Assembly (NCBI GenBank): GCA_903828455.1 | Contig: CAIKMJ010000002.1 | Location: 62,001-126,000 of the forward strand | Length of the DNA stretch: 64,000 bases | Source of the DNA: an uncultured Acidobacteriia bacterium | Lineage (GTDB): Bacteria > Acidobacteriota > Terriglobia > Bryobacterales > Bryobacteraceae | Direction: 5' to 3' | Shown here: positions 46,262 to 64,000 of the stretch, piece after piece | Numbering within the stretch: the first letter of the stretch is position 1 | Layout: every line of letters starts with the position of its first letter | Notes under the pieces: generated by a model | Told to the model about the DNA's origin: nothing | Databases searched by the model: none | Seen by the model: only the letters and a program-made list of their open reading frames with translations | Position numbers and translations under genes: made by a program

Positions 46262-48049
46262 CTAGCGGAACTCCATCGAAAACGGCATCATCCGCAACAT
46301 CCCGCCGCGCAGCCAGATTCTCAGCCGCGCGTCGCGCCAGACCGCCCCGAGCGGCCCCAGCCCCGCAGCCTGCAGCAACCCGTCTGCGCCCGCATTCCGG
46401 TCCGCCCGCAACCCGGCCAGCCGCAGCATCGCCTCCGGCCCCGCATCGGCCGCGCGCAGCAGCATATCGAGCACGCTCCGCCTTCCCGGATAAACCACGA
46501 GGTTGATCTTCTCCCCGGTGCCGATCTTCGCCCGCCGCCGGATCATCTCGATCGCCCGGTCGATCCCCCCGATCTCATCCACCAGCCCGTTCACCTTCGC
46601 CTGCGCTCCCAGCCACACGCGCCCTTCGGCTATCGGCCGGATCTCCCCGACCGGCCGGTTCCTCGCGCCCGCCACTTTTGTCACGAAGTCTTCATACTCC
46701 GCATCGATGCCATCCCGCAGCTTCTGCCGCGCTTCCGCCGTCAGCGGCGCATAATCGGAATCGATCAGCGCAAATTTACCCCGCGCCACCTGTTCCTTCG
46801 ACACCCCCACCTTCTCGTAAAGTCCACGCAGATTCGGTTTGCCGAACACCACCCCGATCGAACCGGTAATCGTCGCCGGATACGCCAGCAGCGGATCGCC
46901 CGTCATCGCCATGTAGTAGCCGCCCGACGCCGCGTCATCCGACATCGAAATCACCACCGGCTTTTTCTTCTTCAGCTCATTCATCGCCCGCCACATCTCG
47001 TCGGACGCCACCACTTCCCCGCCCGGCGAATTAATGCGCACGATCACGCCCTTCACTCCGCCGTCCGCCCCAACCTTCTCCAGCATGCGGTCGAACGCGG
47101 AGGATTCAATCCCGTCGGCGTCGGACGAATCCTCGCTGCCCCGCGTGATATCGCCCTCTCCCACCACAAACGCTATGCGGTTCGGCCCTGTGCTGATCGC
47201 CGGATCGGCATTCGCCGCGTAGTCGTGTTCGGAAATCCGCTTCAGCTCGCTCTGGTGCAGCCGGCTCTTCATCTCCTCCAGCACCTGATCTTCATAGCGA
47301 ACGTCGTCGATCAGCCCCTTCGCCTTCGCCTGCGCCGCCAGAAACGGCCCTTCGTCGATAATCGCCCGCACACTGGCCGCGTCTTTATTCCTCCCGCGCG
47401 CCACCGTGGAAACCAGATCGCCATATAGCTGATCCGCCAGACTAGTCATCACCTCGCGCGTCTCCGGCGACATCGAAGACCGCGTGAACATGTCGCCGAA
47501 ATCCTTATATTTGCCCGCATGCTCCACGTCGATCTCAACGCCCAGCTTGTCCAGCGTGTTTTTGAAGTAGAGGAGTTCGAAGCCCACCCCCTTGAGGTTC
47601 AGCTCGTCCGACGGAACCATGTAGATCTTCTGGCACGCCGTCGCCAGATAATACTCCCGCAGCCCGGGCGCCTTCAGATAAGCAATGAGCGGCTTGCCCG
47701 ACTTGCGGAACTGCTCCAGGTCGGCGCGGATCTCCTGCATCTTCGCCCACCCGATGCTCACACCCTGCGGCTCGAAGACGACGGCTTTAATCCGGCTGTC
47801 CGCCGCCGCATGCCGCAGCATCGACCACACGTTCTCCACCGTCACCGGCGCCCGCTCCGCAAAAAACGGCACCTCCACGTCGAGCGCCGGCTTTTCCGGC
47901 ACGCTCCCGCTCAGGCGCAGAACAAGCGTCGAACCCTCTTCCACCGCCGGCGTCCGGCCGCGAAAAGAGAGTGCCGCAACCACCGCAATCGCACAGAGAA
48001 TAAGGACGATGCCGAACCCCGTAATCACGCCCCACACGAATTTACTCAT
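46262..48049 (-). CDS. sppA: Signal peptide peptidase SppA (67K type)
   Basis: 595 residues with one N-terminal membrane anchor (about 5-28). Tandem ClpP/crotonase-like halves are evident. The catalytic lysine should be Lys180 in EHAGKYKDFGDM of the first half, and the serine Ser375 in SDDAASGGYYMAMTGDP of the second. It is a periplasmic-facing serine protease that degrades cleaved signal peptides. Full length for the long form. The 206 bp before 46262, up to the MgtE-N start, hold a short GC hairpin and no gene. Confidence 0.93.
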   Translation of the reverse strand: MSKFVWGVITGFGIVLILCAIAVVAALSFRGRTPAVEEGSTLVLRLSGSVPEKPALDVEVPFFAERAPVTVENVWSMLRHAAADSRIKAVVFEPQGVSIGWAKMQEIRADLEQFRKSGKPLIAYLKAPGLREYYLATACQKIYMVPSDELNLKGVGFELLYFKNTLDKLGVEIDVEHAGKYKDFGDMFTRSSMSPETREVMTSLADQLYGDLVSTVARGRNKDAASVRAIIDEGPFLAAQAKAKGLIDDVRYEDQVLEEMKSRLHQSELKRISEHDYAANADPAISTGPNRIAFVVGEGDITRGSEDSSDADGIESSAFDRMLEKVGADGGVKGVIVRINSPGGEVVASDEMWRAMNELKKKKPVVISMSDDAASGGYYMAMTGDPLLAYPATITGSIGVVFGKPNLRGLYEKVGVSKEQVARGKFALIDSDYAPLTAEARQKLRDGIDAEYEDFVTKVAGARNRPVGEIRPIAEGRVWLGAQAKVNGLVDEIGGIDRAIEMIRRRAKIGTGEKINLVVYPGRRSVLDMLLRAADAGPEAMLRLAGLRADRNAGADGLLQAAGLGPLGAVWRDARLRIWLRGGMLRMMPFSMEFR

Positions 48050-48295: not shown

Positions 48296-50059
48296 GTGAC
48301 TCTCAACCAGGCGCTTGCGCTCATCCGGTCGGCCAGAGACAGCGGCGGGGAAAAGCAACCGCACTGCCTGCTGTGTGGCTTTGAACCTCTGCATCTCAAA
48401 ACGCTGTTTCAGGCTCACCTGCTGGAGCGCCTCCCGGGCTCGGCTGTGGAAATTCAGACCGGCATTTATGGCGACCTGCCAGGCGGTCTGGCCGCGGCCG
48501 CCGAATCGTCCGCTCTCGGCGCCGCCGTCGTGCTCGAATGGAGCGACTTCGATCCCCGCCTCGGCCTGCGCAGCAGCGGCGGCTGGGCCGAACACCTGCA
48601 GTCCGATATCCTGGCCAGCGCACGGCAGCGCGCCGCGCACATCGAAACGTCGCTCGAAAAGCTGGGCCGCCGCATGCCGGTCGCCCTCGCGCCGCCGAAC
48701 CTTCCGCTCCTGCCCCTCGGCAACACCGTTTCCGCCCAGGCCAGCGTCGTCGAACTGGAACTGGAACACCTTCTCGCGTCATTTCTGAGCCGCGCCGCCC
48801 GCCTGCCCGGCGTCCGCATCGTCCAGCGCAATCGCCTCGACCGCATCCCCGTCGCCGAGCGCCTCGACGCCAAAATGGAACTGCTCGCCGGCTTTCCCTA
48901 CACCGTCCCGTTCGCCGATCTCCTCGCCGCCTCACTCGCCGACGTCCTCTATCAGCCCTCCCCCCGCAAGGGCCTCATCACCGACCTCGACGACACCCTC
49001 TGGGCCGGCATCGTCGGCGAAATCGGCGTCGAACACGTCTCCTGGCACCAGGAGAGCCACAGCCAGACCCACGGCCTCTACCAGCAGATGCTCGGCCACC
49101 TGGCCGGCTGCGGCGTCCTCCTCGCCGTCTGCTCCAAGAACGAACTCACCACCGTGGAACAGGCTCTCGCCCGCCCCGACCTGTTTCTGAAATCCGAATC
49201 CCTCTTCCCCGTCTGCGCCGACTGGGAGCCGAAGTCCAAAGCCGTCGCCCGCATCCTCCGCACCTGGAACATTGCCGAGGATGCCGTCGTTTTTATCGAC
49301 GACAGCCCCATGGAACTCGACGAAGTCCGCCGCGCCTTCCCCGGCATCACCTGCCGCCAGTTCCACGGCAAGGATCCCGCCAAAGTCTGGCAACTTCTCG
49401 GCGAACTGCGCGATCTGTTCGGCAAGCCGCTGCTCATGGAGGAAGACCGCCTCCGCCAGGCGAGCATCCGCGCTTCCGCTCAGCTCGATGAGATGGGCGA
49501 CGAAGCCGCTTCACCCGAATTCCTCCGCAGCCTCGACGGCAAAGTTACGCTCGACTGGCGCATCACGCCGGGCGACAAACGCCCCCTCGAACTGATCAAC
49601 AAGACCAACCAGTTCAACCTGAACGGACTCCGCATCGGTGAAGGCGAATGGCAGCGCGCCCTCGAAGATCCCGCCACGGTGCTGGCCGTCGTCTCCTACG
49701 CCGATAAATTCGGCCCGCTCGGCAAAGTGGCCGTGGCGCTCGGCAAAGCGGAACCGGATGAAAACGGCGTCACGCGGCTCCATATATCCCATTGGGTGAT
49801 GAGCTGCCGCGCATTCTCCCGCCGTCTGGAATACCATACTCTTGAGGGTCTTTTCCGCCATACCGGCGCGGCAGAGATCGTTTTCGCCTTCGCGGAAACG
49901 GAAAAGAACAAGCCGCTGCGGGATTTCCTCCGCGCCGCGGGAATTGCGCCGCCGGCCGCCGAAGTCCCGAACGCCGGCGCCGCGTACCGCCTGACTCGCG
50001 ACGCGTTCTACGCTCAGAACCATGTTTTGCCGCACGAAACAGTGGACGTGAAAATATGA
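48296..50059 (+). CDS. FkbH-type HAD-IIIC family protein (glyceryl-ACP synthase-like)
   Basis: 587 residues from a GTG at 48296. A variable N-terminal domain (1-200) precedes a HAD phosphatase domain with the DxDxT-type motif DLDDTLWAG at 230-238, KNE and FIDDSPMELDEV. The C-terminal part (about 420-560) is the GNAT-like domain typical of FkbH, with PLELINKTNQFNLNGLR. FkbH proteins take the glyceryl group from 1,3-bisphosphoglycerate and load it onto an acyl carrier protein. The ACP gene overlaps by 4 bp (ATGA), which strongly supports that partnership. It heads the cassette of the polysaccharide locus. Confidence 0.85.
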   Translation: MTLNQALALIRSARDSGGEKQPHCLLCGFEPLHLKTLFQAHLLERLPGSAVEIQTGIYGDLPGGLAAAAESSALGAAVVLEWSDFDPRLGLRSSGGWAEHLQSDILASARQRAAHIETSLEKLGRRMPVALAPPNLPLLPLGNTVSAQASVVELELEHLLASFLSRAARLPGVRIVQRNRLDRIPVAERLDAKMELLAGFPYTVPFADLLAASLADVLYQPSPRKGLITDLDDTLWAGIVGEIGVEHVSWHQESHSQTHGLYQQMLGHLAGCGVLLAVCSKNELTTVEQALARPDLFLKSESLFPVCADWEPKSKAVARILRTWNIAEDAVVFIDDSPMELDEVRRAFPGITCRQFHGKDPAKVWQLLGELRDLFGKPLLMEEDRLRQASIRASAQLDEMGDEAASPEFLRSLDGKVTLDWRITPGDKRPLELINKTNQFNLNGLRIGEGEWQRALEDPATVLAVVSYADKFGPLGKVAVALGKAEPDENGVTRLHISHWVMSCRAFSRRLEYHTLEGLFRHTGAAEIVFAFAETEKNKPLRDFLRAAGIAPPAAEVPNAGAAYRLTRDAFYAQNHVLPHETVDVKI

Positions 50060-50304
50060 ACGACACCGAAAAGCGCCTCGCGCTTTGTTTTGCCAATGTT
50101 TTTCCCGAACTGAGCGACGATCAGATCCGCCGCGCCAGCACCGCTTCCATCGCCGCCTGGGACTCGGTCGCCCACATCACCCTGCTGACCAGCATCGGGG
50201 AGGAATTCGGCATCGATCTCGATTTCGAAGAGTTTGCCGAAGCCAACTCCTTCGCCGCCGTCCTTGAACTGGTTCGCGCGAGATCCGCGAATGCCGGAAA
50301 CTAA
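50056..50304 (+). CDS. Free-standing acyl carrier protein
   Basis: 82 residues. The phosphopantetheine attachment site is Ser37 in WDSVAHITLL. An acidic helix 2/3 (EEFGIDLDFEEF) completes the ACP fold. It is distinct from a fatty-acid-synthase AcpP by its short basic N-terminus and its place between fkbH and a VOC gene. It is the expected carrier for the glyceryl thioester made by the FkbH protein. It overlaps the preceding gene by 4 bp and the following one by 14 bp. Confidence 0.9.
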   Translation: MNDTEKRLALCFANVFPELSDDQIRRASTASIAAWDSVAHITLLTSIGEEFGIDLDFEEFAEANSFAAVLELVRARSANAGN

Positions 50305-50743
50305 AGGCATAACGCTGCACCATATCGGTTGCGTCGTGCCGTCGATTGAAGACAGCATCGAGCGTTATAAAGCGGCGCTCGGGGCAACCACCGTATCGCA
50401 GGTTTTCGAAGACCCCATCCAGCGCTCTCGCGTCGCCTTCCTCGATCTCCCCACCCCGGGTCCGGCCCATCACGGCCAGGTGCTTTTCGAGCTGGTTCAA
50501 CCCGCCGCGCCGGATTCCCCGGTCGCGCGCTTTCTCGGCAAAGGTGGCGGCCTCCATCATCTTTGTTACGAAGTTGACGACCTTGCCGAACAGATCCGGC
50601 TGATGAAACTGCAGCGTGCCCTGCTCATCAGTTCACCCAAACCGGCTGTCGCCTTTGGCGGCCGCCGCATCGCCTGGATGCGCACCCCCGATGCTCTCCT
50701 GATCGAATATCTGGAGCGCCGTCTGCCGGAATCCGCCGATTGA
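50291..50743 (+). CDS. VOC-fold protein, methylmalonyl-CoA-epimerase-like
   Basis: 150 residues from the ATG at 50291; the longer frame to 50234 would lie inside the ACP. It consists of two beta-alpha-beta-beta-beta units with the metal-ligand pattern HHIGCVV, LFELVQP, LHHLCYEV and LIEYLE (His, Glu/Gln, His, Glu). Relatives include methylmalonyl-CoA epimerase and glyoxalase. In this context it may act on a carrier-bound hydroxyacyl group, perhaps as epimerase or isomerase, but the reaction is not known. Confidence 0.8.
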   Translation: MPETKGITLHHIGCVVPSIEDSIERYKAALGATTVSQVFEDPIQRSRVAFLDLPTPGPAHHGQVLFELVQPAAPDSPVARFLGKGGGLHHLCYEVDDLAEQIRLMKLQRALLISSPKPAVAFGGRRIAWMRTPDALLIEYLERRLPESAD

Positions 50744-50768
50744 AGATCAACCGCATGGACCGGATCGT

Positions 50769-51872
50769 ATGAGCACCGAATCAGTTGTGCGCGTCAGACC
50801 CTGGCTTCCCGGCGACGAGGATGCCATCTGCCGCATCGCCGCGCGCAATGGTCTGAGCGCCCTCGATCCCTCCACAATCCGCAACAGCAGAAGCCTCCAT
50901 CCGTTCGCTCATGAGTTCCGCGACATCCCGGCCGGCTGGGTTCTGGAGATCGACGGCGCCATCGTCGGCAACCTCAGCAACATTCACATGCTGTATGAAC
51001 TGGGTGGCAGACGCTTGCTCGCCACCGTGGCCTCCGCCTGGGCGGTCGATTCCGAACACCGCGGAAAGGCGCTGCGCCTCATGAGCACGTTCTTCCGCCA
51101 GAAGGGCGTCGACCTGCTGCTGAACGTCAGCGCCAGTCCCGCCACCGCCAAAATTCTAACCGGGATGAAGATCCCGCGCCTCCCGATTCCGGACTACGGC
51201 CGGCCCTGCTTCTGGGCGACGCGGCCCCGCGCCTTCGCCCGTGCCGCCCTCACACGCCGCGGCATCTCCGGCGCGGCGGCACTCGCCTGGCCAGCGGGAT
51301 TCGCCTTGCTGGCCCGCGACGTAATTCGTCAAAGCGGACGCGGGCGCCTGTCCTCGGCTGTACGTCGCATCGATGCTTTCGACGACCGCTTCGATGACCT
51401 CTGGAACGACATCGCGGCCGGACCCGTGCGCCTGCGCGCCGTCCGGACCCGCGCCGTCCTCGAGTGGCGGTACCGGGCCGAGCTGCGGGAACGCCGCGCC
51501 TCGATCCTGATCGCCGAACGCGCCGGCAGACTCTCCGGTTACGCCGTCCTGACCAGCCGGCCGGATTCCGATGCCGCCGCGGAAGGTGGAATGAGCCTCT
51601 GCGACGTCGCCGACCTGCAGGCCGCCGGCGACGACCCTGCAACCTTCCGCGATCTTCTTCTCGCCTGCATCCGCAGCGCCCGCGAAGACGGCAGGGATGC
51701 CGTCAAATTCATGACCGGTACCCCGGCCAAACGCCTGCCCGCGGAGCGACTGCATCCCATCAGCTACCAGATGCCTTTCTGGCAGCAATACTTCCAGGCC
51801 GGCTCCCCGGAACTGGCAGCCGCGCTGGCTGGCGCCGATGCCTGGGACTTCTCTCTGTTCGATACTTTTTAA
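50769..51872 (+). CDS. Tandem GNAT-domain protein
   Basis: 367 residues. The first GNAT half has LLATVASAWAVDSEHRGKALRLMSTFF, with an acetyl-CoA-loop-like RGK segment near residue 97. The second half begins about residue 200 (IDAFDDRFDDLWNDI) and has a degenerate acceptor part. Paired GNAT proteins often transfer acyl groups to sugars or lipids. It lies 25 bp after the VOC gene on the same strand and is likely part of the same operon. Confidence 0.68.
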   Translation: MSTESVVRVRPWLPGDEDAICRIAARNGLSALDPSTIRNSRSLHPFAHEFRDIPAGWVLEIDGAIVGNLSNIHMLYELGGRRLLATVASAWAVDSEHRGKALRLMSTFFRQKGVDLLLNVSASPATAKILTGMKIPRLPIPDYGRPCFWATRPRAFARAALTRRGISGAAALAWPAGFALLARDVIRQSGRGRLSSAVRRIDAFDDRFDDLWNDIAAGPVRLRAVRTRAVLEWRYRAELRERRASILIAERAGRLSGYAVLTSRPDSDAAAEGGMSLCDVADLQAAGDDPATFRDLLLACIRSAREDGRDAVKFMTGTPAKRLPAERLHPISYQMPFWQQYFQAGSPELAAALAGADAWDFSLFDTF

Positions 51873-51927: not shown

Positions 51928-52761
51928 ATGGGTCTTCCCGGTTTTCTCGATCGACCGCTGAAGAGCGTGCGGGTTTTATTCCGCGCCGTCAACGGACTCG
52001 GTCTGCCCGCCACGCTGCAGTTGGTTCAGCGCCAGATTGGCAGCGCGTTTGGACAAGGACCGGAGACCATATACCGCATCCGCGTGCCGGGATACCCTCA
52101 GCCGATTTCAATCCGCGGCGGTCAAAGCACCGACGGTTTCGCGTTCTACCAGCACCTCGCCATGCAGGACCTCGATATCTTCGACCTCGGCTCGCCGAAG
52201 CTGATTATCGATGCCGGTGCCAATATCGGGATGGCCTCTCTCTACCTGCTCAAACGGTACCCCTCGGTGAAAATCGTCGCCGTCGAACCCGATCCGGAGA
52301 CGTTTGAACTCTGCCGCGCAAACCTCGCCGCGTACGCCGACAGGGTCGTGCTGGTGAAGGGCGCCGTATGGAGCAGTTGCGGAGAACTGGTCTTCGTCCG
52401 CAACCAGTCGGAATGGAACAGTCACGTGCAGGGCGCGGAGAACGTACACGCCGGCCAGGAAGCACAGGCAGCTCCGGCGACGGAAATTCGCGTGCAGTCC
52501 TTCGATCTTCCCTCCCTGATTGCGCTCGGCGGCGGGGGGCCCGTGGATCTGCTCAAAATGGACATCGAAGGCAGCGAGGCCGAAGTATTCGCCCGCAATC
52601 CCGACAGCTGGCTTTCCGCGGTCCGCAATATCATCATCGAACTGCACGGACCCGAGTGCGACAAGAGCTTCGCTGCCGCGCTGACCGGTTATGAGTACGA
52701 AGCCTTCCCGCTGCGCTCGGTGACTGTCTGCCGGAATTTGCGGCCCCGACTTCCGTCCTGA
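51928..52761 (+). CDS. FkbM family methyltransferase
   Basis: 277 residues with a SAM-binding motif KLIIDAGANIGMASLYLLKRY and VKIVAVEPDPETFELCRANL. The FkbM block LLKMDIEGSEAEVFA is complete. These enzymes O-methylate polyketides or sugars in surface polysaccharides. The stop is followed closely by the acyltransferase gene (ATG at 52780). The N-terminal 60 residues are a helical extension. Confidence 0.87.
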   Translation: MGLPGFLDRPLKSVRVLFRAVNGLGLPATLQLVQRQIGSAFGQGPETIYRIRVPGYPQPISIRGGQSTDGFAFYQHLAMQDLDIFDLGSPKLIIDAGANIGMASLYLLKRYPSVKIVAVEPDPETFELCRANLAAYADRVVLVKGAVWSSCGELVFVRNQSEWNSHVQGAENVHAGQEAQAAPATEIRVQSFDLPSLIALGGGGPVDLLKMDIEGSEAEVFARNPDSWLSAVRNIIIELHGPECDKSFAAALTGYEYEAFPLRSVTVCRNLRPRLPS

Positions 52762-52779: not shown

Positions 52780-53949
52780 ATGAGCCTCAACTCTCTCTTC
52801 CTTGGCCTGCGCCGCCATACCAGCTCCGGACTCTACATTCCGGAGCTTGACGGCCTTCGCTTCGTCGCTATTCTTTGCGTATTTATCTTTCATCTCGCCG
52901 GCGATGTGGTGCGCCACAATCCCCCCGGCGTTCCCGACCCCGACTCGGCGTTCTTCTACCTCACCCAGCAGCTGAACATCGGCGTGCCCCTCTTCTTCGC
53001 CATCAGCGGCATGATCCTCGGTCTCCCCTTTGCCCGCTACTGGCTTCTCGCCGGGCCCAAAATCTCACTGAAGCGCTACTTCCTCCGCCGCGTCACGCGC
53101 CTCGAACCGCCCTACATCGCCGCTCTTCTCCTCCTGTTCGTGGTCAAGCTCGCCGGCCACCGGGGCACGGTGCCGGAGATGATCCCGCACCTCGGCGCCA
53201 GTGTCCTCTACCTGCACAGTCTGCTTTACCGCGACATGAGCACCATCAATCCCGTCGCCTGGTCACTCGAAGTGGAAGTGCAGTTTTACATCCTCGCCCC
53301 GGTGCTGGCGCTCGTCTTCGCCGTGCGTTCCGCGGCGCTGCGCCGGTTGCTGATCTGCCTTGCCATCGTTGTGGCGGCCGCACTCAATCCGTGGACCGAC
53401 ATGAACGTCTCCCGCGGTAATCTCGCCACCTGGATGGCCCATCTTTCTCTGGCAGGCAACATTCAGTACTTCCTGACCGGCTTCCTGCTGGCAGATTTCT
53501 TCCTGGTCCTGCCGGTCGCCAAATACCGCAACCACCGCTGGGACATTGTGACGCTGCTCGGCTGGCCAGCCCTGATTTTTCTGTTGATCCGTTACACGCA
53601 GATCGCGAACGTCGCGCTGCCGGCCGTCATCCTGCTCCTGTATGTGGCGGTGTTTTACGGAACCCGGTCGAGCCGCCTGTTCGCCACGCTCTGGGTGGCC
53701 TCCATCGGCGGCATGTGTTACTCCATCTACCTGCTGCACAATTACGCGATCGCCGTCCTCGGCTTCATCACGGAACGGATCGGCCAGGGACTTCCCTTCG
53801 AAGCCCGCTTCGTCATTCAGTCGCTGATCATGACACCGGCCGTGCTCGCCCTTTGCATTGTCTTTTACCGGCTGATCGAACAGCCCTGCATGCGGCCGGA
53901 CTGGCCTGCCCGCCTCCGCCGGTTCGCACTCGGCAAACTGCAGGCTTAA
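52780..53949 (+). CDS. Acyltransferase_3 family (OafA-like) membrane acyltransferase
   Basis: 389 residues from the ATG at 52780; a TTG at 52762 would add six residues. About ten hydrophobic helices and the opening YIPELDGLRFVAILCVFIFHLAGD, with the family's catalytic His in FIFHLAG. INPVAWSLEVEVQFYILAPVL follows in the middle. Such enzymes acylate sugars of O-antigen or exopolysaccharide at the membrane. It could use the acyl group supplied by the FkbH/ACP cassette, which is inference. It converges on the flippase gene with 28 bp between stops. Confidence 0.85.
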   Translation: MSLNSLFLGLRRHTSSGLYIPELDGLRFVAILCVFIFHLAGDVVRHNPPGVPDPDSAFFYLTQQLNIGVPLFFAISGMILGLPFARYWLLAGPKISLKRYFLRRVTRLEPPYIAALLLLFVVKLAGHRGTVPEMIPHLGASVLYLHSLLYRDMSTINPVAWSLEVEVQFYILAPVLALVFAVRSAALRRLLICLAIVVAAALNPWTDMNVSRGNLATWMAHLSLAGNIQYFLTGFLLADFFLVLPVAKYRNHRWDIVTLLGWPALIFLLIRYTQIANVALPAVILLLYVAVFYGTRSSRLFATLWVASIGGMCYSIYLLHNYAIAVLGFITERIGQGLPFEARFVIQSLIMTPAVLALCIVFYRLIEQPCMRPDWPARLRRFALGKLQA

Positions 53950-53977: not shown

Positions 53978-55483
53978 TTATTCCGCCACCGCGACTTCGC
54001 TCTTCCCGGCGCGCAGCCCGGCGAAGAACCGGTAGAACCGCATCACGCGCTGCCGGAACAATCCCCACAGCACCGCCGCATAGACCAGTCCGCCCAGCGC
54101 CACTTCCTCGCCCAGCCCCGGCCAGCCATGGGGCATCTGCATCCGCCTGAAACCATATATCGACGCCACCATACCGGCCGAACCCACCATCGCCGGCAGG
54201 ATCGCCGCCGCATACTTCCACACGCCGCAGCGGAGTTCCCGGAACAACCGCACCGCCAGCGGCAACACCGTAATCGGCGACATCATCAGCCACGTTGCCG
54301 CCACCACCGCCACCCCGCGCGGCGAGGCGAAGTAGAACGCAAACGGCATCAGCACGAAGTTCAGAATCGACATCCACATGGTGAACCGCGTCAGCCGCAG
54401 CGTCGTGAGCACCTGGCTGATCAGATACGCCATGGACCGGATGCACATAAAAACCGCCAGCCAGCTCAGCGGCCCGGCGGCCGCCGCCCACTTCGGACCC
54501 AGCAGCAGTTCCACCGCTTCCGGCGCCACCACCGCCAGCCCGAACAGCAGCGGGAAAAGCGACATCGCCAGCGTCTCGCTGAAGATCAGGAAATACCGCA
54601 GCATCAGCTCTTTGTCGTGCTGCACCCGCGAAAACAAGGGCCCGGTGACCCGCATGATCATCGTGCCGACCTTCTCCGCCGGCGTGCTCGCCAGGTTCGA
54701 TGCCAGCCGGTACGCGCCCAGCGGATTCTGCCCCATCGTGCGCCCGATTACCATCGTGTCGGAAAGCCCGTTGATGCTCCCCGTCACGCGCTGCGCCGCA
54801 ATCTCCATCCCGAAGCGAAGCGGCACCCACACATCTTTCTTCCGCGGCCACGCATACCCGACCGGCCGCCACCAGATCGCCAGCGCAATATTTGCCGCCC
54901 GTCCCGTCAGCTGACCCACCGGCAGCGACCAGTAACCCATCCCGGCGTACGCACACCCGACCATCACGACAGCCGTCACCAGCGCCAGCACCGACTCGGC
55001 CAGCGACAACCGCCGGTAATCCATGTCCCGCTGCAGCAACCCCAGCGGAATGGCTTCGAGCGACGTCAGGATGAATGACACGCTCGCCACAATCACCAGA
55101 TCGTGCAGCGCCGCCGCCCGGAAAAACCTCGCGATGAGCGGCGCGGCCGCCACCGACGCCAAAAAGAAAAACGCTCCCGACAGGGCCGAAATCGTATTCA
55201 GCTGCGCCGTCACCCGCCGGTCCAGCTCCCGCATCTGCAGCACCGCCATGCCGATGCCGAACTCCGCCATGACGTTGGTCACGACGAAGTAGAACCCCGC
55301 CATCTCCACCAGCCCGTAATCGGCCGGCGAAAGCAGCCGCGCCGTGATCAGCACCGATGGCCAGGAAATAATCTGCGAGATCCACTTCGCGCCCACCGTC
55401 CACGCCAGCCCGCCCACCAGCGCGCGGTCCAGATGCTTCGGTTCGGGCGGCGTCGCGTCAGGCGCGTGATCTGGTTCAGACAT
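53978..55483 (-). CDS. Wzx/MATE-like polysaccharide flippase
   Basis: 501 residues with about 12-14 hydrophobic helices. The N-terminal block LVGGLAWTVGAKWISQIISWP and LLSPADYGLVEMAG is characteristic of the PST/MVF flippase superfamily. It would export lipid-linked repeat units across the inner membrane. The N-terminal 20 residues are hydrophilic and proline-rich. It sits between two acyltransferase genes of the opposite orientation. Confidence 0.86.
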   Translation of the reverse strand: MSEPDHAPDATPPEPKHLDRALVGGLAWTVGAKWISQIISWPSVLITARLLSPADYGLVEMAGFYFVVTNVMAEFGIGMAVLQMRELDRRVTAQLNTISALSGAFFFLASVAAAPLIARFFRAAALHDLVIVASVSFILTSLEAIPLGLLQRDMDYRRLSLAESVLALVTAVVMVGCAYAGMGYWSLPVGQLTGRAANIALAIWWRPVGYAWPRKKDVWVPLRFGMEIAAQRVTGSINGLSDTMVIGRTMGQNPLGAYRLASNLASTPAEKVGTMIMRVTGPLFSRVQHDKELMLRYFLIFSETLAMSLFPLLFGLAVVAPEAVELLLGPKWAAAAGPLSWLAVFMCIRSMAYLISQVLTTLRLTRFTMWMSILNFVLMPFAFYFASPRGVAVVAATWLMMSPITVLPLAVRLFRELRCGVWKYAAAILPAMVGSAGMVASIYGFRRMQMPHGWPGLGEEVALGGLVYAAVLWGLFRQRVMRFYRFFAGLRAGKSEVAVAE

Positions 55484-55779: not shown

Positions 55780-56868
55780 TTGAACTCCCCGAGGAATGCG
55801 GCACCCGATTCCGGCCTGACGCCAGGCGGCAACCCGGCCGAACCCGGAACCCTGACCTGGTCCGGCCCCGAAATCCCGTCGCTCTACGGCCTTCGCGGTC
55901 TGGCTGCGTTCACCGTCGTGCTGTCCCATCTGGGCCTCGCGGCCTTCAACGCCAACTACGCCGTCATCTGTTTCTTCGTACTGTCCGGCTTCCTGATCAC
56001 CCATCTGCTCCTCCGCGAGTTTGACCGGACCGGCGACATTTCCCTCCGCCAGTTTTATACCCGCCGCGCGCTGCGCATTTTCCCCGCGTTCTACGGATAC
56101 GCCGCCTGTTACATCGCCGGTCGCCTGGTGGTCCGTCTGCCCATCGATTGGCCCACGCTGATCTCCTGTCTCACCTACACGAGCAACTACTACTTCGCCT
56201 TCAGCGGCCAGCCGCTCGCCACCATGATCCACGCCTGGTCGCTGGCCGTTGAAGAACAGTTCTACCTGCTCTGGCCACTGATCGTGTGGCGCCTCCACGG
56301 CAACCGCCCCCTCATGATGAAGATCCTCGCCGCCACCATCGCAGCCGTCTGGATCTACCGCTGGATCGCCGTCCTTTACGCCTTCGACGGCACCTACATC
56401 TTCTGCGCCTTCGAAACGCGCGCCGACGCCCTCGCCATCGGCTGCCTGATCGCCGTCGCCAGCCGTGAGCGCTGCCTGCCTCGCTGGGTGATCGAAGCCA
56501 GGTGGCTTGCGGCCATCGCCATCGTTGCCGTGATTCTCGCCTCGGCGCTCGTGATCAACGGTCCCCGCTATTCGTGGTCGCTGGTGGCTGTTGCGTTCGC
56601 CGTGATCCTGATCCAGTCGGTAGCCCACGCCCGCACCCGCTGGTACCGGTTTCTGAACTCCCGGCTCCTGCATGCACTCGGAGTCATCTCTTACTCGCTC
56701 TACCTCTATCACCCGTTTTCCAACCGCCTGCCGGGCAAGCTGCACACGCTCCCCATCGGCGTCGCCTTCGCCCTTCTGCTGGCTACAGCTTCTTACTGGA
56801 TCGTGGAAAGACCGTTCCTCACGCTCAAAGACCGCCTGTCGAAAGCGCACCGCCCGGCCGCGGGTTAG
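55780..56868 (+). CDS. Second Acyltransferase_3 family (OafA-like) membrane acyltransferase
   Basis: 362 residues; TTG at 55780 is the best start seen, but the first 35 residues are low in complexity and the true start is uncertain. The family opening SLYGLRGLAAFTVVLSHLGL contains the catalytic His in VLSHLG, and HAWSLAVEEQFYLLWPLIV is the second hallmark. About ten helices. Like the gene at 52780 it would acylate the locus glycan or lipid-linked precursor. It is convergent with the methyltransferase gene, 30 bp away. Confidence 0.83.
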   Translation: MNSPRNAAPDSGLTPGGNPAEPGTLTWSGPEIPSLYGLRGLAAFTVVLSHLGLAAFNANYAVICFFVLSGFLITHLLLREFDRTGDISLRQFYTRRALRIFPAFYGYAACYIAGRLVVRLPIDWPTLISCLTYTSNYYFAFSGQPLATMIHAWSLAVEEQFYLLWPLIVWRLHGNRPLMMKILAATIAAVWIYRWIAVLYAFDGTYIFCAFETRADALAIGCLIAVASRERCLPRWVIEARWLAAIAIVAVILASALVINGPRYSWSLVAVAFAVILIQSVAHARTRWYRFLNSRLLHALGVISYSLYLYHPFSNRLPGKLHTLPIGVAFALLLATASYWIVERPFLTLKDRLSKAHRPAAG

Positions 56869-56898: not shown

Positions 56899-57633
56899 CT
56901 ACTCCGCGAAAATCATCATCGAATTGCCGCCCAGCAGCCTCGCCGACAGCCGCGGGTCCAGCATATTGAGCGGCCGGCGGAACACGTTGGCCAGCTTCGT
57001 CTTGATACTCCCGGTCGGCACCGACGTCGCCCCCTCCGTCAGAAACCAGTCGATCACCCGATAGCCCGAATGCTCCAGCGTCTTCAGCGCCGTCTCCATC
57101 GTGAATATGTGCAGATGCCCAACCGTCTCCCAGGAATTACGCCCCCGCAGGATCGCGCTCACGTGCGCATCGAGCGGTATGTGCAGGATTGTTCGGCGAG
57201 CCTTTTTCCTCGTCTCCCGCAGGAACGCGAAGCAGTCCTCAACGTGCTCCACAACATCCATCACCAGCGCCAGATCGTACGTCTGCCCATCGTCGAACGC
57301 ACTGCCCAGCACGAACCGGACGTTCGTATCGCCGAAGTGCCGCAGGCTGATTTCATGCGCCTGCGGGCTGATCTCGTAACCGGTGTATTCATTGCCCGCC
57401 GGCAGCCCCTTCCCGAGTTCCACCAGGATGCCGCCGGCGCCGCAGCCGATCTCACAAATCGTCTTCGGCTGAAATTCCGGATGCCTCGCCAGCATCTTCA
57501 GAATCCAGCCGGCCTTGTACGGCGAATCTTCCAGATGCCACGCCCCGCCGGTCTTCGACAGGTAGGCTCCGTCCGTGTAAATACTCTGGCCTTCAGTGCT
57601 CAAATGATTCCGGATTTCTGCCGCCCCGGCCAA
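56899..57633 (-). CDS. Class I SAM-dependent methyltransferase
   Basis: 244 residues from a TTG at 57633; a stop lies a few codons upstream and no ATG occurs in the early frame. Motif I is ICEIGCGAGGILVELGKGL, and the motif near LVMDVVEHVEDCFAFL acts as post-motif II. HIPLDAHVSAILRG and HLHIFTMETALKTLEHSGYRV (partly quoted) match methyltransferase-11/12-type enzymes in glycan clusters. It probably modifies a sugar or its lipid carrier. It lies 154 bp from the GT4 gene on the same strand. Confidence 0.8.
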   Translation of the reverse strand: MAGAAEIRNHLSTEGQSIYTDGAYLSKTGGAWHLEDSPYKAGWILKMLARHPEFQPKTICEIGCGAGGILVELGKGLPAGNEYTGYEISPQAHEISLRHFGDTNVRFVLGSAFDDGQTYDLALVMDVVEHVEDCFAFLRETRKKARRTILHIPLDAHVSAILRGRNSWETVGHLHIFTMETALKTLEHSGYRVIDWFLTEGATSVPTGSIKTKLANVFRRPLNMLDPRLSARLLGGNSMMIFAE

Positions 57634-57787: not shown

Positions 57788-59194
57788 TTATCCGGCAACA
57801 GACCGCGCCGCTGTGCCCGCCTTCCGGCGGTACATTGCCGGCTTGGTCGCCTTTACCGGGTCCTCCACCTTGACCGTGTCCTCCACCTTCACCGCGTCCT
57901 CAACCATGCGCGCGAACTCCCGGACGTAGGTTTTCTCATCCAGTTCGCTGTGCGCCCTGGCGAAACCTGCTTCGCCCATGCGCCGCCGCAGTTCCGCATC
58001 CGCAAGCAACTGCCGCAGCCGCCGGGCCAGCGCAGCACTGTCCCCGGCGGAAAACAGAAAACCATTTTCGCCATCCCGCACCAGATGCGGCGTCCCGCCG
58101 ATGTCCGACCCGATTACGGGCAAACCCGCCGCCATGCCTTCGATCAGAGCGCGGGAAAGACCTTCGCTGCGGCTCGGCAACACCATCGCCGTCGCGCCTT
58201 CCACAATCTTCAGCGCTTCCGGATTAGGCCTCGCGCGCAGGAACTCGATCCGCGGGCAATCCCCCGCGACGGCCTTCAATTCGTCGAGATCCGGATAATA
58301 GCCGAGCAGCTTCAGCTTCACCTCCGGAAATTCGCCGGCAAGTTCAGCGAAAGCTCTCGCCAGCAAGTCCGCCCCTTTCAAATACCAGGGCGCCCCGACC
58401 ATCAGGACGAATCGCTCCTGCGCCTCCCGGTTCGGATTCCGCCGGATGACCGAAACCGGCACGAAATCATGGAACACCGAATTTCGTACATTGCGCAGCA
58501 GCGCGTATTTGCTCGTCTGGTCGGGATACAGGAAGTGGGCCCGGTCCGCAACGAACATCGACACGTGCAGACACAGATCGGAGTAAGCCTTCATGATCCG
58601 CGCGCGCACTCCCGGCCGCTCCCGTTCCGCAATGTAATTCAGCTGCGGGCTCGTGACCACCTCGACCACGAGGCGTGCCCCCGTCAGCAGTTTCAGCGCG
58701 ACCCCCATCACGCCCGTCGTCATATGCGAATACGCAACAATGCATTCAAAACGCCGCTCCCGGTGCAGTTCGAGGCCCTTGCGCACGTAGAAACTGAATG
58801 TCCTGACCCGCTCCCGAAGTCCGCGGTTCAGGGAACTCAGCCGCCAGTGGTACCGAAAACTGCCCACACTGTAAACCGGATAAGACCCCGGCCCGAACAC
58901 CGCCTCAACTTCGGACGGCTTCTCGAACCAGACGGGCTGCAGCACATCTCCTTCCAGCACCTCCGACAGGTGCGCGAAGCGGTCCATACGCCGGTCCGTT
59001 GGCGGCGGAACAAGTGTCGAGTGGATATAAAGAATTCGGCGCCGAACGCGCCGCTCACGGCTCTCCGGACCCCGGTGCCCTTCCGCCACAATCGCGTCCG
59101 GCCCTCGGGACGAAAAGCGCGTCGACTTCCGCGCGACCGCTGCGAGACTGAGCAAAATGCCGGAAACCGCGCGGAGGATGTGGTTCAGTGTCAT
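57788..59194 (-). CDS. GT4-type glycosyltransferase (paralog A)
   Basis: 468 residues from the ATG at 59194; a longer frame to 59311 overlaps the neighbouring paralog. The N-terminal domain begins with RRILYIHSTLVPPPTDRRMD at about residue 52, after a basic leader. The C-terminal donor-binding domain has VGAPWYLKGADLLARAF, VLPSRSEGLSRALIEGMAAG and PVIGSDIGGTPHLVRDGENG, the standard GT4 EX7E-like region. The C-terminus has a VEDxVK repeat. It is a clear paralog of the gene at 59274: both share HMTTG and GSYPVY blocks at matching places. It probably adds sugars to the repeat unit in the cytoplasm. Confidence 0.86.
   Translation of the reverse strand: MTLNHILRAVSGILLSLAAVARKSTRFSSRGPDAIVAEGHRGPESRERRVRRRILYIHSTLVPPPTDRRMDRFAHLSEVLEGDVLQPVWFEKPSEVEAVFGPGSYPVYSVGSFRYHWRLSSLNRGLRERVRTFSFYVRKGLELHRERRFECIVAYSHMTTGVMGVALKLLTGARLVVEVVTSPQLNYIAERERPGVRARIMKAYSDLCLHVSMFVADRAHFLYPDQTSKYALLRNVRNSVFHDFVPVSVIRRNPNREAQERFVLMVGAPWYLKGADLLARAFAELAGEFPEVKLKLLGYYPDLDELKAVAGDCPRIEFLRARPNPEALKIVEGATAMVLPSRSEGLSRALIEGMAAGLPVIGSDIGGTPHLVRDGENGFLFSAGDSAALARRLRQLLADAELRRRMGEAGFARAHSELDEKTYVREFARMVEDAVKVEDTVKVEDPVKATKPAMYRRKAGTAARSVAG
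57851..57904 (-). repeat. Three 18-bp coding tandem repeats (VED[ATP]VK)
   Basis: Three adjacent 18-bp units at 57851-57868, 57869-57886 and 57887-57904 encode VEDPVK, VEDTVK and VEDAVK in the C-terminal tail of the GT4 paralog A. The paralog B tail lacks them. The repeat is acidic/basic alternating and looks like a recent local expansion. Confidence 0.85.
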
Positions 59195-59273
59195 CTGGAA
59201 GCCGGGCGACGCGTTACCCAGGTCCAGATAGTGGGCGGAAATCAGGAATTTCTCAAAAAAAAATTGCGGCTTT

Positions 59274-60461
59274 CTACTGCGGTGCCACCCGAGCCACCGG
59301 CGCTCCTTCAACCGTGAGCCGGATCATGGCGGAAAACTCGCGGATATACGCCTTTTCATCCATCAGCGCGCGGGCCCGCGTATAACCGGCGTCGCCCATC
59401 CGACTCCGCAGTTCCGGATCCCGCAGCATCCTGCGCAGCGCATCCGCCAGCGCCCCGGCGTCTTCCGGCGGAACCAGCAGGCCGTTTTCCTCATGCCGGA
59501 CCAGCACCGGTATCCCGCCCAGATCGGCCCCGATCAGCGGCACCCCCGCCGCCATGCCCTCCAGCAACACGCGCGACAATCCCTCGCAGCGGCTCGGCGC
59601 TGCAAGCACCGTCGACCCCGCGATCATCTTCAGCGCTTCCGGGTGCGGCCGGGGGCCCAGAATTTCGATACGCTCCGACCCGCCCGTCATGGCCTTCAAT
59701 TCCGCCCCGTCCGGATAAAAGCCCATGATCCGAAGCTTCACATCGGGAAACTCAGCGGCGACCTCAAGGAACGCCCTCACCAGCAGATCGGCGCCCTTCA
59801 GATACCAGGGGGCTCCCACCAGCAGAATGTAACGCTCCCGCTTCTCGCGCTCTTCGTCCCGTTGAATGGCGGCAACCGGCACAAATTCGTGGAATACCGA
59901 GTTGCGAATCTTTCGCAGCAGCCGGTATGCTCCCGTCTGGTTTGGATAAAGAAAATGCGCCCGGTCGGCGAGGAACATCGAAAGGTGGAGGCAGACGTCC
60001 GAGTAAAGCTTCATCGCCCGCTCGCGCAGCGTTGGCTTCGCGCTGTGGCTGATATAGACATGCTCCGGACTCGTCACGATCTCGATGATCAGCTTGGCAC
60101 CGGTCAGCAGCTTGATCGCTCCCGCCAGCAGCCCGGTGGTCATGTGGGAATACGCAACGATGCAGTCGAACTTCCGCTCCCGGTACAGTTCCACGCCCTT
60201 GCCCAGGTAAAAACGGAAAGTCGCCAGCCGCTGCCGCACGCCGCGATGGGGCGAGCCGAGAAACCAGTGGTAACGGAACCGGCCCACGGTGTACACCGGA
60301 TACGAACCGGGCCCGAACATCGCCTCCACCTCGGCCGGCGTCTGAAACCAGATGGGCTGCAGTACATCGCCTTCCAGTTCCGCGGACAGCAGATGGAAGC
60401 GGTCCGTCTGCAGGTCCGTCGGTGGCGGCTGCAGGGTGGAGTGCACGTAAAGGATTCGCAT
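59274..60461 (-). CDS. GT4-type glycosyltransferase (paralog B)
   Basis: 395 residues from the ATG at 60461, starting directly with MRILYVHSTLQPPPTDLQTD. A longer frame to 60551 would enter the Wzy-like gene and is rejected. Domain order and motifs match paralog A: FGPGSYPVYTVGRFRYHW, IVAYSHMTTGLL, LLVGAPWYLKGADLLVRAF and APSRCEGLSRVLLEGMAAGV. The two genes are a tandem duplication with about 80 bp between A's ATG and B's stop. Different substrate specificity is likely, since both are maintained. It lies 44 bp after the Wzy-like gene. Confidence 0.88.
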   Translation of the reverse strand: MRILYVHSTLQPPPTDLQTDRFHLLSAELEGDVLQPIWFQTPAEVEAMFGPGSYPVYTVGRFRYHWFLGSPHRGVRQRLATFRFYLGKGVELYRERKFDCIVAYSHMTTGLLAGAIKLLTGAKLIIEIVTSPEHVYISHSAKPTLRERAMKLYSDVCLHLSMFLADRAHFLYPNQTGAYRLLRKIRNSVFHEFVPVAAIQRDEEREKRERYILLVGAPWYLKGADLLVRAFLEVAAEFPDVKLRIMGFYPDGAELKAMTGGSERIEILGPRPHPEALKMIAGSTVLAAPSRCEGLSRVLLEGMAAGVPLIGADLGGIPVLVRHEENGLLVPPEDAGALADALRRMLRDPELRSRMGDAGYTRARALMDEKAYIREFSAMIRLTVEGAPVARVAPQ

Positions 60462-60505: not shown

Positions 60506-62074
60506 CTAAGTCAGGCGCCGCTGTTGCAGCGGGAACGGCTGACCGTTCCATCCCGCCCCGCGCCGAACCGGTTGCGGGAGCGGGGACGCGGGTACCGGCG
60601 CGGCCAGTTCAATGTCGGCGGCCGCCCTCAGGGCAATCGCCACTCCGATCATCGCCGGCAGGTAGAACCGGTAAGCATTGGAAAGAAACACAATGGTCAC
60701 CACATATCCGGTCATCGCCAACAGATAACAGAAAGCCGCGTTGGTAATTTCCACGTGCCCGGCCAGTTTGGCCTTTTTATAAACCTTGCTCACCGAACCG
60801 TACGCATAGCCGATGCCCAGAACGAAAAATATCAGCGCCGGCACTCCGCACTCGCTGGAAACCTCGGTAAACGCGTTATGCGTCTCATGCCAGTTTCCGA
60901 CCTGACCGGCCGCCACCGCATGCCCGCCTTCGTAGTTGGAAAACTGCCCCATGCCGACGCCCAGCAGTGGATGCTCCATCGTGAAAATCAGGCTCTGCCG
61001 CAGCAGATATTCGCGCGAATCCCTCGATTCCCCGGCCTCCTGGTTCAGCGTTGCGTTCGCCGACTCCGCACCGAATAATGTCGCCAGACGATCCGCCGCT
61101 CCGCCGCTCACAAGAATCGGGATCGCGATAGCCAACAGTCCAGTCGCCGCCATCGTGATCATCCGCTGTTTGGCGGACCCCCGGAACAGCACGAATAAAA
61201 ACATGGCAGCCAAAGCGATCAGCGCGCCCCGCGACCCCGTTGCCAGAACGATCCTCGCCCCGTAGGCAATCGGGAGCAACATGGAATAGCGCACGAACGA
61301 GTTTCGCTTCTTGTCCATCGCGATGAACAGGATGAACGGCAGCAAAAGAATGACGTGGCTGGCCAGATCGTTGGAATTCCCCACCGTCGTGGTCGTGTCG
61401 CCCATAGTCAGGCGCCCCTCCACGTCCGGCTTGGCGAGAACGGCTGCGGCCCCGATAAAGCAAATTCCGGAAAAGCCCACCAGCGACACCAGCGAACGCA
61501 CCGCGCTCCATTCCGTCGTCAGCCCGCCAACCACGAAAAGCAGCGGAAACGCGAACAGCGTGTAGAGCTTCAGATCCTCGAACGAGCCGCCCGCCCAGGT
61601 ACTCCCCGGCAGCGACAAAATCATGCACACGAAAAACCCGGTCCACATCCGTGCGGCGCGATCCTGATATGTCCGGCCGATCGCCCCCGTCACCAGGGCG
61701 CCAAGAATCGCGGGCGGTCCCACCACATAGAGCAAATACGTGTTGGCCTGCAGCCAGACGTAGAGCAATTCCGGCAGCACGGTCAGCCGCACGAACAGCA
61801 TCGCCAGCCCCGCGCGAAACGCCATCTTACGCAATCCGGCGTGCTCGTCGGCTTTTTCCTCCGCGACCTTCACCCCGGGCGCGAGGTATTGGTTCGGACG
61901 CTGCTGCCCAACCGGCCGGAAGCCTGGCGTCGACACCGGCCGCTGCGATACAGGACGCTGCGATACAGGTCGCTGCGATACAGGACGCTGCGGCGCCGGG
62001 CGCTGTGGCAAAGTGCCGGCCCCCGCCCGGGCTGGCGGCGGGTAGGGATAATCCGAATTCAGCATTCGACCCAT
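60506..62074 (-). CDS. O-antigen ligase/polymerase (Wzy_C/WaaL-like)
   Basis: 522 residues. A proline-rich N-terminal tail with five RP-containing repeats (QRPVS, see the repeat entry) and about 12 membrane helices follow. The large periplasmic loop contains EHPLLGVGMGQFSNYEGG and WHETHNAFTEVSSECG, the HxxxN-type Wzy_C signature. It would polymerise or ligate lipid-linked repeat units exported by the flippase. An ATG at 62065 is an alternative start. It heads the minus-strand run Wzy-like, GT4-B, GT4-A, methyltransferase. Confidence 0.85.
   Translation of the reverse strand: MGRMLNSDYPYPPPARAGAGTLPQRPAPQRPVSQRPVSQRPVSQRPVSTPGFRPVGQQRPNQYLAPGVKVAEEKADEHAGLRKMAFRAGLAMLFVRLTVLPELLYVWLQANTYLLYVVGPPAILGALVTGAIGRTYQDRAARMWTGFFVCMILSLPGSTWAGGSFEDLKLYTLFAFPLLFVVGGLTTEWSAVRSLVSLVGFSGICFIGAAAVLAKPDVEGRLTMGDTTTTVGNSNDLASHVILLLPFILFIAMDKKRNSFVRYSMLLPIAYGARIVLATGSRGALIALAAMFLFVLFRGSAKQRMITMAATGLLAIAIPILVSGGAADRLATLFGAESANATLNQEAGESRDSREYLLRQSLIFTMEHPLLGVGMGQFSNYEGGHAVAAGQVGNWHETHNAFTEVSSECGVPALIFFVLGIGYAYGSVSKVYKKAKLAGHVEITNAAFCYLLAMTGYVVTIVFLSNAYRFYLPAMIGVAIALRAAADIELAAPVPASPLPQPVRRGAGWNGQPFPLQQRRLT
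61941..62000 (-). repeat. 15-bp coding tandem repeats (QRPVS) in the Wzy-like gene
   Basis: Three near-perfect units, CGCTGCGATACAGGA/T on the plus strand, occupy 61941-61955, 61956-61970 and 61971-61985, followed by a degenerate one at 61986-62000. On the coding strand they give QRPVS or QRPAP. They lie in the cytoplasmic N-terminal tail before the first membrane helix. Confidence 0.9.
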
Positions 62075-63999: not shown

Positions 64000-64000
64000 C

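Follow-up and report, generated by a model that had tools for sequence, protein, structure and literature searches.

An FkbH-acyl carrier protein-VOC cassette beside surface-glycan genes: a candidate acyl-donor module recurring across bacterial phyla

Introduction

FkbH proteins and their acyl carrier protein (ACP) have hitherto been known as a polyketide starter and extender system, and one would wonder what such a pair does beside surface-glycan genes. This question is raised by a stretch of 64,000 nucleotides, here called the window, from contig CAIKMJ010000002.1 of an uncultured Acidobacteriia bacterium (assembly GCA_903828455.1). Four plus-strand genes at positions 48296-51872 encode an FkbH-type protein, a free ACP, a VOC metalloenzyme and a protein with tandem GNAT folds. 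A preliminary description of this DNA proposed that a glyceryl or related hydroxyacyl group is made on the ACP, remodelled by the VOC protein and moved to a polysaccharide. We report here a computational analysis of this cassette. The VOC protein belongs to a separate clade that recurs beside FkbH and ACP in many phyla, and we consider it likely that the cassette is an acyl module for surface glycans.

In two papers, FkbH together with an ACP is proposed to form glyceryl-S-ACP from 1,3-bisphosphoglycerate in tetronate and methoxymalonyl pathways (PMC7489565, PMC3679948). The FkbH-ACP pair itself is thus already known, and the new part is the VOC clade that is linked to it.

Results

The gene coordinates bore out the tight packing proposed for the cassette: FkbH and ACP overlap by 4 bp, ACP and VOC by 14 bp, and 25 bp separate VOC from the GNAT gene. 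Profiles, alignments and an AlphaFold2 model likewise agreed with the proposed identities of the four proteins. The FkbH protein consists of an N-terminal domain of about 220 residues, a HAD domain with the motif DLDDTLW at residue 230 (HAD DxDxT) and a GNAT-like C-terminal part; the motifs CSKN, FIDDS, NKTNQFNL, SCR and TEKN were also found. The phosphopantetheine serine of the ACP is Ser37 in AWDSV, and this [DE]S site is kept in 61 of 62 homologous ACP stretches. For the fourth protein no Pfam family scored above its cut-off, PF13527 and PF00583 matching weakly below theirs. An AlphaFold2 model of it (mean pLDDT 72.6) resembles two-domain structures of the GNAT/N-myristoyltransferase type, with Z-scores of 17-18.

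We then come to the VOC protein. It reaches 61.1 bits with the methylmalonyl-CoA epimerase model TIGR03081 (cut-off 114.95) and 18.4 bits with the glyoxalase I model TIGR00068 (cut-off 120). By alignment its metal ligands would be H11, E67, H90 and E139, in keeping with the His, Gln/Glu, His, Glu pattern of the epimerases. In 51 VOC sequences these four residues, the clade motif D41-P42-x-Q44 and much of the 116-126 block are invariant or nearly so; the conservation of residues 116-129 is partly due to the search patterns given below, outside which H11, D41, Q44, E67, H90 and E139 lie. D41, Q44 and R125/R126 are conserved in the cassette clade and not in the aligned epimerase-like rows. In a quick tree (86 rows, 143 columns) the 62 cassette VOCs separate from 24 epimerase-like VOCs with an SH-aLRT support of 100. 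The rows L008 and L017, labelled as methylmalonyl-CoA epimerase, are VOCs of FkbH-ACP-VOC trios and place on the cassette side.

The AlphaFold2 model of the VOC protein (pLDDT 91.2) finds its best match in the Protein Data Bank in 3hdp (Z 19.7, rmsd 1.5 over 132 residues), followed by 2qh0 (Z 18.9), 3oa4 (Z 17.8) and methylmalonyl-CoA epimerases (Z 16-17). Both 3hdp and 2qh0 are Clostridium acetobutylicum glyoxalase I, and 3oa4 was deposited as a glyoxalase. Fold and ligands fit the abstraction of a proton beside a thioester carbonyl. Sequence and fold do not decide between epimerase and glyoxalase chemistry.

We scanned a genome collection holding one genome per species (84,980 species) for the VOC protein only, with the patterns P[VKL]PAVAF[GND]G and RRIAW[IM][YR]T[RP]. 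This yielded 57 loci, in phyla that include Acidobacteriota, Gemmatimonadota, Planctomycetota, Omnitrophota, Myxococcota, Pseudomonadota, Verrucomicrobiota and others. FkbH is present in 51 of them; its distance from the VOC gene is at most 300 bp in 41 and at most 2.9 kb in the remaining 10. Six loci are without FkbH (L057, L070, L072, L077, L096 and L103). In L070, L077 and L096 the VOC gene lies less than 1 kb from a contig end; L070 retains the ACP and a 63-residue FkbH fragment, and L096 retains the ACP. L072 belongs to a contig of genome G210 on which FkbH is found about 30 kb from the VOC gene. Among the gene orders called in the 62 VOC loci, duplicates excluded, FkbH-ACP-VOC occurs 23 times and VOC-FkbH-ACP 10 times. 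Many of these 62 loci are near-copies or short, 40 of them reaching 12 kb; genes were called by a simple script, and seed labels are phmmer matches at 1e-5, those for LbH and GNAT9 being loose. Since FkbH-ACP-VOC recurs, chance is excluded as the source of the cassette.

The same association is seen within the phylum. FkbH scored above its cut-off in 27 of 247 acidobacterial genomes (34 genes). Our VOC profile A3 found eight genes at 118 bits or more, in seven genomes, then three at 103-105 bits, then none above 92. FkbH is present in all seven genomes with a cassette VOC and in 20 of the 240 others (Fisher p 8.7e-8, kinship ignored). In six of the seven, no more than 1.2 kb separates VOC from FkbH, G210 being the seventh. 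No FkbH or ACP was called near 24 control genes for epimerase-like VOCs of the same phylum (30 overlapping loci, 8 genes with 12-20 kb around them and 16 with about 1.5 kb per side; in several of these loci the script left the VOC gene itself uncalled). Several control genes adjoin acyl-CoA dehydrogenase genes.

The three VOCs at 103-105 bits (G036, G061 and G195) were dropped as cassette members, having rml surroundings and neither Q44 nor the RR pair. Their loci read rmlB-rmlA-rmlD-VOC-GmhB-like HAD-rmlC and resemble dTDP-rhamnose clusters; the rml and GmhB names are our reading of the proteins, for which only SDR seed matches were computed. The VOC gene sits between the rmlD-like and GmhB-like genes (L156:8334-8771, L157, L158), and FkbH is found elsewhere in the same genomes. 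The apparent fusions L101_1 and L104_7 were also rejected as evidence because they look like gene-caller read-ons.

Other loci differ in their layout. With 77% identity, the VOC of L048:9700-13450 is the nearest to that of the window; there ACP and VOC are on one strand and FkbH is on the opposite one, so that FkbH, ACP and VOC need not form one operon. At L075:18475-19644, downstream of FkbH-ACP-VOC, a 389-residue protein whose C-terminal half is VOC-like adjoins an acyl-CoA dehydrogenase gene. The FkbH-ACP-VOC set of L104 comes from a metagenome-assembled genome titled Klebsiella pneumoniae; its VOC groups with those of environmental bacteria, and the bin name may be wrong.

The VOC gene, presented in the preliminary description as a step of the system, proved to be a near-constant companion of FkbH and at the same time an optional one. 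Mapped onto a tree of 70 FkbH proteins, the presence of VOC needs 14 changes, of which at least 12 are forced by the starred branches. The VOC gene has thus been gained or lost by the FkbH-ACP pair on many occasions. Three labels of absence on this tree are doubtful: L110 (VOC 30 kb off), L109 (5.9-kb contig) and L112 (block at a contig end). The loci L125, L126 and L127, from three genomes, have the order LbH-FkbH-ACP-deacetylase-GT4-GT4 of L088, but without VOC. The ACPs are 93.9% and the FkbH proteins 87.5-88.8% identical in the pairs L090-L126, L090-L125 and L088-L125. Between ACP and deacetylase L125-L127 have 90-170 bp, the place that VOC occupies in L084 and L088, and a six-frame search of these three loci gave no VOC match at 60 bits or more. 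The acyl module therefore presumably works without VOC, which would modify its output. VOC is an optional and not an obligatory part of the FkbH-ACP module.

Which enzyme could take the acyl group from the ACP? The trio has exchangeable acyltransferases for neighbours, and in 37 of the 62 VOC loci one of five types is no more than two genes away: LbH hexapeptide proteins in 15, tandem GNATs in 11 (window included), PF13302 GNATs in 5, MBOAT proteins in 4 and FemAB plus GNAT in 2. The transfer by OafA proteins proposed earlier is the weaker part of the preliminary description: an OafA seed match was found in only two VOC loci (the window and L064), and the window GNAT is thus a likelier transferase than OafA. 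Two loci, L064 (E 2e-9) and L056 (E 1e-4), hold a direct sequence relative of the GNAT protein next to trio genes, and via L056 the family reaches 10 other trio loci at about 20% identity.

The neighbours are mainly of a glycan type. Pfam tallies of 272 neighbouring proteins (70-900 residues, within four genes, from 42 of 43 representative loci, L094 giving none) have at their top glycosyltransferases and sulfotransferases, polysaccharide deacetylase, methyltransferases and DegT, as well as acyltransferases of the hexapeptide and GNAT types; FdtA and MBOAT are also among the families. These tallies rest on the best 25 of 121 and the best 25 of 143 families. In L102, from Caballeronia, the row reads 146-residue protein, DegT aminotransferase, GT2, FkbH, ACP, GNAT with weak kinship to PseH, VOC and methyltransferase, as would be expected for an N-acylated amino sugar. 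MBOAT genes also stand within two genes of FkbH-ACP pairs without VOC in eight acidobacterial loci (L105, L107, L108, L113, L114, L116, L117 and L118); the pair seems to serve membrane O-acyltransferases too.

The window corresponds to positions 62001-126000 of a 135,855-bp contig, with both flanks of the cassette visible (Table 1). FkbH, ACP, VOC, GNAT, FkbM and OafA are the six genes of a unit on the plus strand, which points toward a glycan unit on the minus strand. The preliminary description had placed the cassette at the head of a glycan locus. FkbM, two OafA proteins, a flippase, GT4 enzymes and a Wzy-like protein are indeed present, but the cassette and the glycan genes do not form one operon, since the flippase, GT4 and Wzy-like genes are on the minus strand. 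The flippase, Wzy-like and GT4 scores are all below the model cut-offs, so that kinship is clear at the level of the family and not at that of the exact subtype.

Table 1. Genes of the cassette and of its surroundings in the window.
Feature	Position	Strand	Remarks
Acyl-CoA dehydrogenase family protein	38282-39463	-	393 aa; about 9 kb upstream, outside the cassette unit
SppA	46262-48049	-	upstream neighbour
FkbH-type HAD-IIIC protein	48296-50059	+	587 aa, GTG start; TIGR01686 216 bits (cut-off 146.65)
Free ACP	50056-50304	+	82 aa; PF00550 19.6 bits, just under gathering 20.8
VOC metalloenzyme	50291-50743	+	150 aa; PF13669 66 bits; cassette-specific clade
Tandem GNAT-fold acyltransferase (proposed acyl transferase)	50769-51872	+	367 aa; AlphaFold2 model
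FkbM-family methyltransferase	51928-52761	+	PF05050 59.8 bits, TIGR01444 91 bits
OafA-type membrane acyltransferase	52780-53949 (alternative TTG start 52762)	+	PF01757 109.6 bits
MOP-family flippase, Wzx-like	53978-55483	-	NF007773 177.8 bits, under equivalog cut-off 273
Second OafA-type acyltransferase	55780-56868	+	PF01757 94.5 bits
Class I SAM methyltransferase	56899-57633	-	PF13489 46.5 bits; absent from the preliminary description
GT4-family glycosyltransferase	57788-59311	-	NF041876, TIGR03088 and other GT4 models, below cut-offs
GT4-family glycosyltransferase	59274-60461	-	paralogue of the preceding GT4, 519 bits to that protein
Wzy/O-ligase-like membrane protein	60506-62065	-	TIGR03097 53.8 bits, under cut-off 188
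1216-aa protein	62212-64000 (in-window part)	-	leaves the window beside the Wzy-like gene (L046:4213-7863)

For the in-window part of the 1216-residue protein no NCBIfam model matched at 0.001. The acyl-CoA dehydrogenase family protein upstream reaches scores far below the cut-offs of its best models, and its gene probably has no relation to the cassette. We also looked for the remainder of a methoxymalonyl-ACP operon (FkbG-K): the cassette operon holds no 3-hydroxyacyl or acyl-CoA dehydrogenase, and 3HCDH_N, the FkbK-type domain, was found in the genome only on contigs C22 and C37 and not on the cassette contig. A polyketide synthase (PKS) ketosynthase, as in tetronate and other PKS pathways, was not found near the cassette. 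Seven PF00109 proteins are among the matches listed for the genome, of which the only one on the cassette contig is a weak partial match (32.8 bits, C2:20415) about 90 kb off. PF00668, the condensation domain of non-ribosomal peptide synthetases (NRPS), had no match in the genome. No PKS/NRPS or FkbI/FkbK operon therefore adjoins the cassette, a finding that had been set beforehand as one that would speak against a glycan role had it turned out otherwise.

A version of the module is carried by a plasmid of Sinorhizobium meliloti. On pSymB of S. meliloti ml28 (L155) the order is VOC, MBOAT, a 409-residue protein annotated as TonB-dependent receptor, ACP and FkbH, and a gene annotated as capsular polysaccharide biosynthesis follows about 5 kb further on. 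Close relatives of this VOC are found on 40 Sinorhizobium plasmid records, 38 of them covering more than 80% of the query. The protein, which is not among the rows of our VOC tree, has DPxQ, the metal ligands and the RR pair. In pSymB of S. meliloti 1021 (L150:12746-14856) FkbH is in two reading-frame pieces, where ml28 has one intact gene of 628 aa, and 1021, the strain in common laboratory use, may therefore lack a working module. On plasmid pPfer1 of Paludibaculum fermentans an ACP-VOC pair adjoins the genes of an exosortase and of a deacetylase of the XrtA system; the stretch, which reaches the end of the record, has no FkbH annotation. In Aureimonas an annotated epimerase lies between carboxylase and mutase (scpA) genes, and in the Shinella and Microvirga plasmid stretches no VOC, ACP or FkbH was called.

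Discussion

Gene order, recurrence across phyla, the VOC clade, its near-constant company with FkbH, its optionality, the glycan neighbours and the lack of a PKS/NRPS match nearby are direct observations. On balance, they lead us to favour an acyl-donor module in which VOC alters the ACP-bound acyl group and a neighbouring acyltransferase moves it to a glycan precursor. By analogy with characterised FkbH systems, FkbH would take 1,3-bisphosphoglycerate and the D-glyceryl group would end on the phosphopantetheine of the free ACP. Through its C1 carbonyl and C2 hydroxyl such an ACP-bound 2-hydroxyacyl thioester could bind the VOC metal in a bidentate way, and its proton at C2 would be acidic. 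VOC would remove this alpha proton, forming an ene-diolate, and would most likely return it on the opposite face, inverting C2 from D- to L-glyceryl. The adjacent acyltransferase, in the window the tandem GNAT, would then acylate, still in the cytoplasm, a sugar linked to a nucleotide or a lipid, at one of its amino or hydroxyl groups. FkbM could possibly O-methylate the acyl group or the sugar, after which the flippase and the Wzy-like protein would export and polymerise the product.

We do not hold these steps with equal confidence. VOC probably acts on the ACP-bound product. That its act would be an epimerisation at C2 is a tentative proposal, which we place somewhat short of probable. More doubtful still is that VOC represents a novel type of enzyme, which would epimerise 2-hydroxyacyl thioesters on the ACP and so fix the configuration of the glyceryl group ahead of its placement on the surface glycan.

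Several observations weigh against this reading or parts of it. Co-occurrence of the trio with glycan genes in other genomes was found as anticipated, and the recurring gene order has glycan and not PKS/NRPS neighbours. Yet any glycan marker is present in only 39 of the 62 VOC loci and a glycosyltransferase, flippase or Wzy in only 24, many contigs being short, and FkbH loci without VOC give similar rates (16 of 27 and 10 of 27). As these rates are alike, the glycan link belongs to FkbH-ACP generally; it is no stronger with VOC, which is a refinement of it. The tested acyltransferase types are missing within two genes in 25 of the 62 loci (24 plus L094, in which the trio genes went uncalled), and two loci (the window and L075) have a match to an acyl-CoA dehydrogenase seed. 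Neither a contig end nor a distant FkbH on the same contig explains the absence of FkbH from L057 and L103 (contigs of 5-6 kb). In three genomes, rml loci away from FkbH hold a related VOC that lacks Q44 and the RR pair. The VOC of S. meliloti scores 77 bits, inside the epimerase-like range, and is of the cassette type by motif and neighbours only. On the FkbH tree VOC is clustered: shuffled labels need 19.6 changes on average, and one of 500 shuffles was as low as 14. Against the VOC family profile 2qh0 scores 110 bits, 3oa4 81 and human methylmalonyl-CoA epimerase 68, and with C. acetobutylicum glyoxalase I as the nearest solved structures epimerase chemistry is not the sole reading. Finally, substrate, reaction and acceptor are all deduced from the genes.

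What else could the VOC protein do? It could be a lyase or isomerase: the ene-diolate of (phospho)glyceryl-ACP would lose its C3 group to give pyruvoyl-ACP, or rearrange, and a pyruvyl or lactyl group would be attached. The first step is the same as in epimerisation, and the clade-conserved D41, Q44 and R125/R126 could serve a different leaving group. However, the same cluster, its LbH acyltransferase included, exists without VOC, which suits a subtle change of the acyl group better, and we know of no precedent in the VOC fold for such a reaction on an ACP substrate. We regard this possibility as unlikely.

Slightly less likely is a glyoxalase-type reaction, in which holo-ACP would replace glutathione and its hemithioacetal with methylglyoxal, or a related 2-oxoaldehyde, would become lactoyl-S-ACP, the lactate then passing to the glycan. 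The closest solved structure and best profile match of the cassette VOC, C. acetobutylicum glyoxalase I, speaks for it; this protein is treated in a review as a GLYI with active sites inside single subunits (PMC5412262). It shares 30-31% identity over the fold but lacks P42, Q44, P116 and P118 of the cassette VOC, two of which belong to the clade motif. Moreover, such a reaction would not need FkbH, yet VOC accompanies FkbH in 51 of 57 loci and in seven of seven acidobacterial genomes, and the VOC protein reaches 18 bits with TIGR00068 (cut-off 120) and 61 with TIGR03081. We note apart from this that the cassette VOC profile suits C. acetobutylicum glyoxalase I better than it does methylmalonyl-CoA epimerases, and the cellular role of that protein may be worth re-examining. 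The main text of a paper on Clostridium flagellar islands (PMC13317340) mentions neither a glyoxalase nor an acyl carrier.

The acceptor could also be a protein or a lipid, for example an exported glycoprotein of the exosortase/XrtA system or a membrane lipid, to which we give about the same low likelihood. The Wzy-like protein weakly matches TIGR03097, the model of an exosortase-A-associated O-ligase, and the ACP-VOC pair of Paludibaculum adjoins exosortase-system genes. The DegT, FdtA, glycosyltransferase and sulfotransferase neighbours nevertheless indicate sugars, and XrtA loci are themselves largely polysaccharide loci.

A role in secondary metabolism would agree with the characterised use of FkbH (PMC7489565, PMC3679948), and two FkbH loci without adjacent VOC in our acidobacterial sample (L123 and L128) adjoin NRPS condensation domains. 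The ketosynthase label of L128 is absent among the PF00109 matches listed. Two further loci without VOC are L124, which has a 3-hydroxyacyl dehydrogenase, and L106, which matches an NRPS seed; as the genome of L106 is without a condensation domain, this label comes from a different part of the seed. At most four of the 34 acidobacterial FkbH genes have PKS/NRPS-type or FkbK-type neighbours within about 10 kb, and L106, L123, L124 and L128 gave no VOC match in six frames. Ketosynthase and NRPS seeds had no match in the 62 VOC loci, 40 of them of at least 12 kb, and the cassette has glycan neighbours and a genome without condensation domain. We therefore rejected a PKS/NRPS use of the module as very improbable. 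Hardly credible at all is an ordinary methylmalonyl-CoA epimerase standing beside FkbH-ACP by coincidence: fold, ligands and the 61 bits with TIGR03081 are shared, but this score is under the equivalog cut-off of 115, the clade is separate, the genome holds another, epimerase-like VOC at C25:22704, and FkbH stands at 51 of 57 VOC loci against none called at the 24 control genes, so that this housekeeping identity was rejected.

A parallel can be drawn between the favoured acyl-donor module and known systems. Like the tetromadurin Mad7/Mad8 and Mad14/Mad12 and the bafilomycin FkbH-like modules, the cassette combines an FkbH domain with a free ACP. Unlike them, it has no adjoining PKS and no FkbI/FkbK dehydrogenases, and it adds a VOC and a GNAT-fold acyltransferase. 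Its FkbH protein has 587 residues against 367 in the bafilomycin cluster (PMC3679948). With methylmalonyl-CoA epimerase, whose natural target is the alpha proton of a thioester, the VOC protein shares the fold and ligands of the His/Glu/His/Glu type. It differs from it by its separate clade, its score below the TIGR03081 cut-off, its D41-P42-x-Q44 motif and the lack of the two-residue insertion before the last ligand, and it accompanies FkbH-ACP and not mutase genes.

The flagellin-glycan genes of Campylobacter jejuni include ACPs, an FkbH-like HAD-IIIC phosphatase and GNATs in one glycan locus, which is not known to include a VOC. In the tetronate decoration of perosamine in Vibrio cholerae O1, a short hydroxyacyl group borne by an ACP passes to an amino sugar, the acyl group being made by other enzymes. 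In titles and abstracts of open-licence papers we did not find FkbH, ACP and VOC joined in a glycan context, nor, in open-licence papers, FkbH or VOC tied to a glycan locus.

If the proposed chemistry holds, it would explain by what route bacterial glycans could acquire glyceric and related acid groups, and it would provide a case of a VOC enzyme acting on a carrier protein. The VOC gene, coming and going in otherwise constant clusters, would then be a one-gene stereochemical switch of surface chemistry in many phyla. The version on pSymB of S. meliloti places such a module at hand in a genetically tractable organism.

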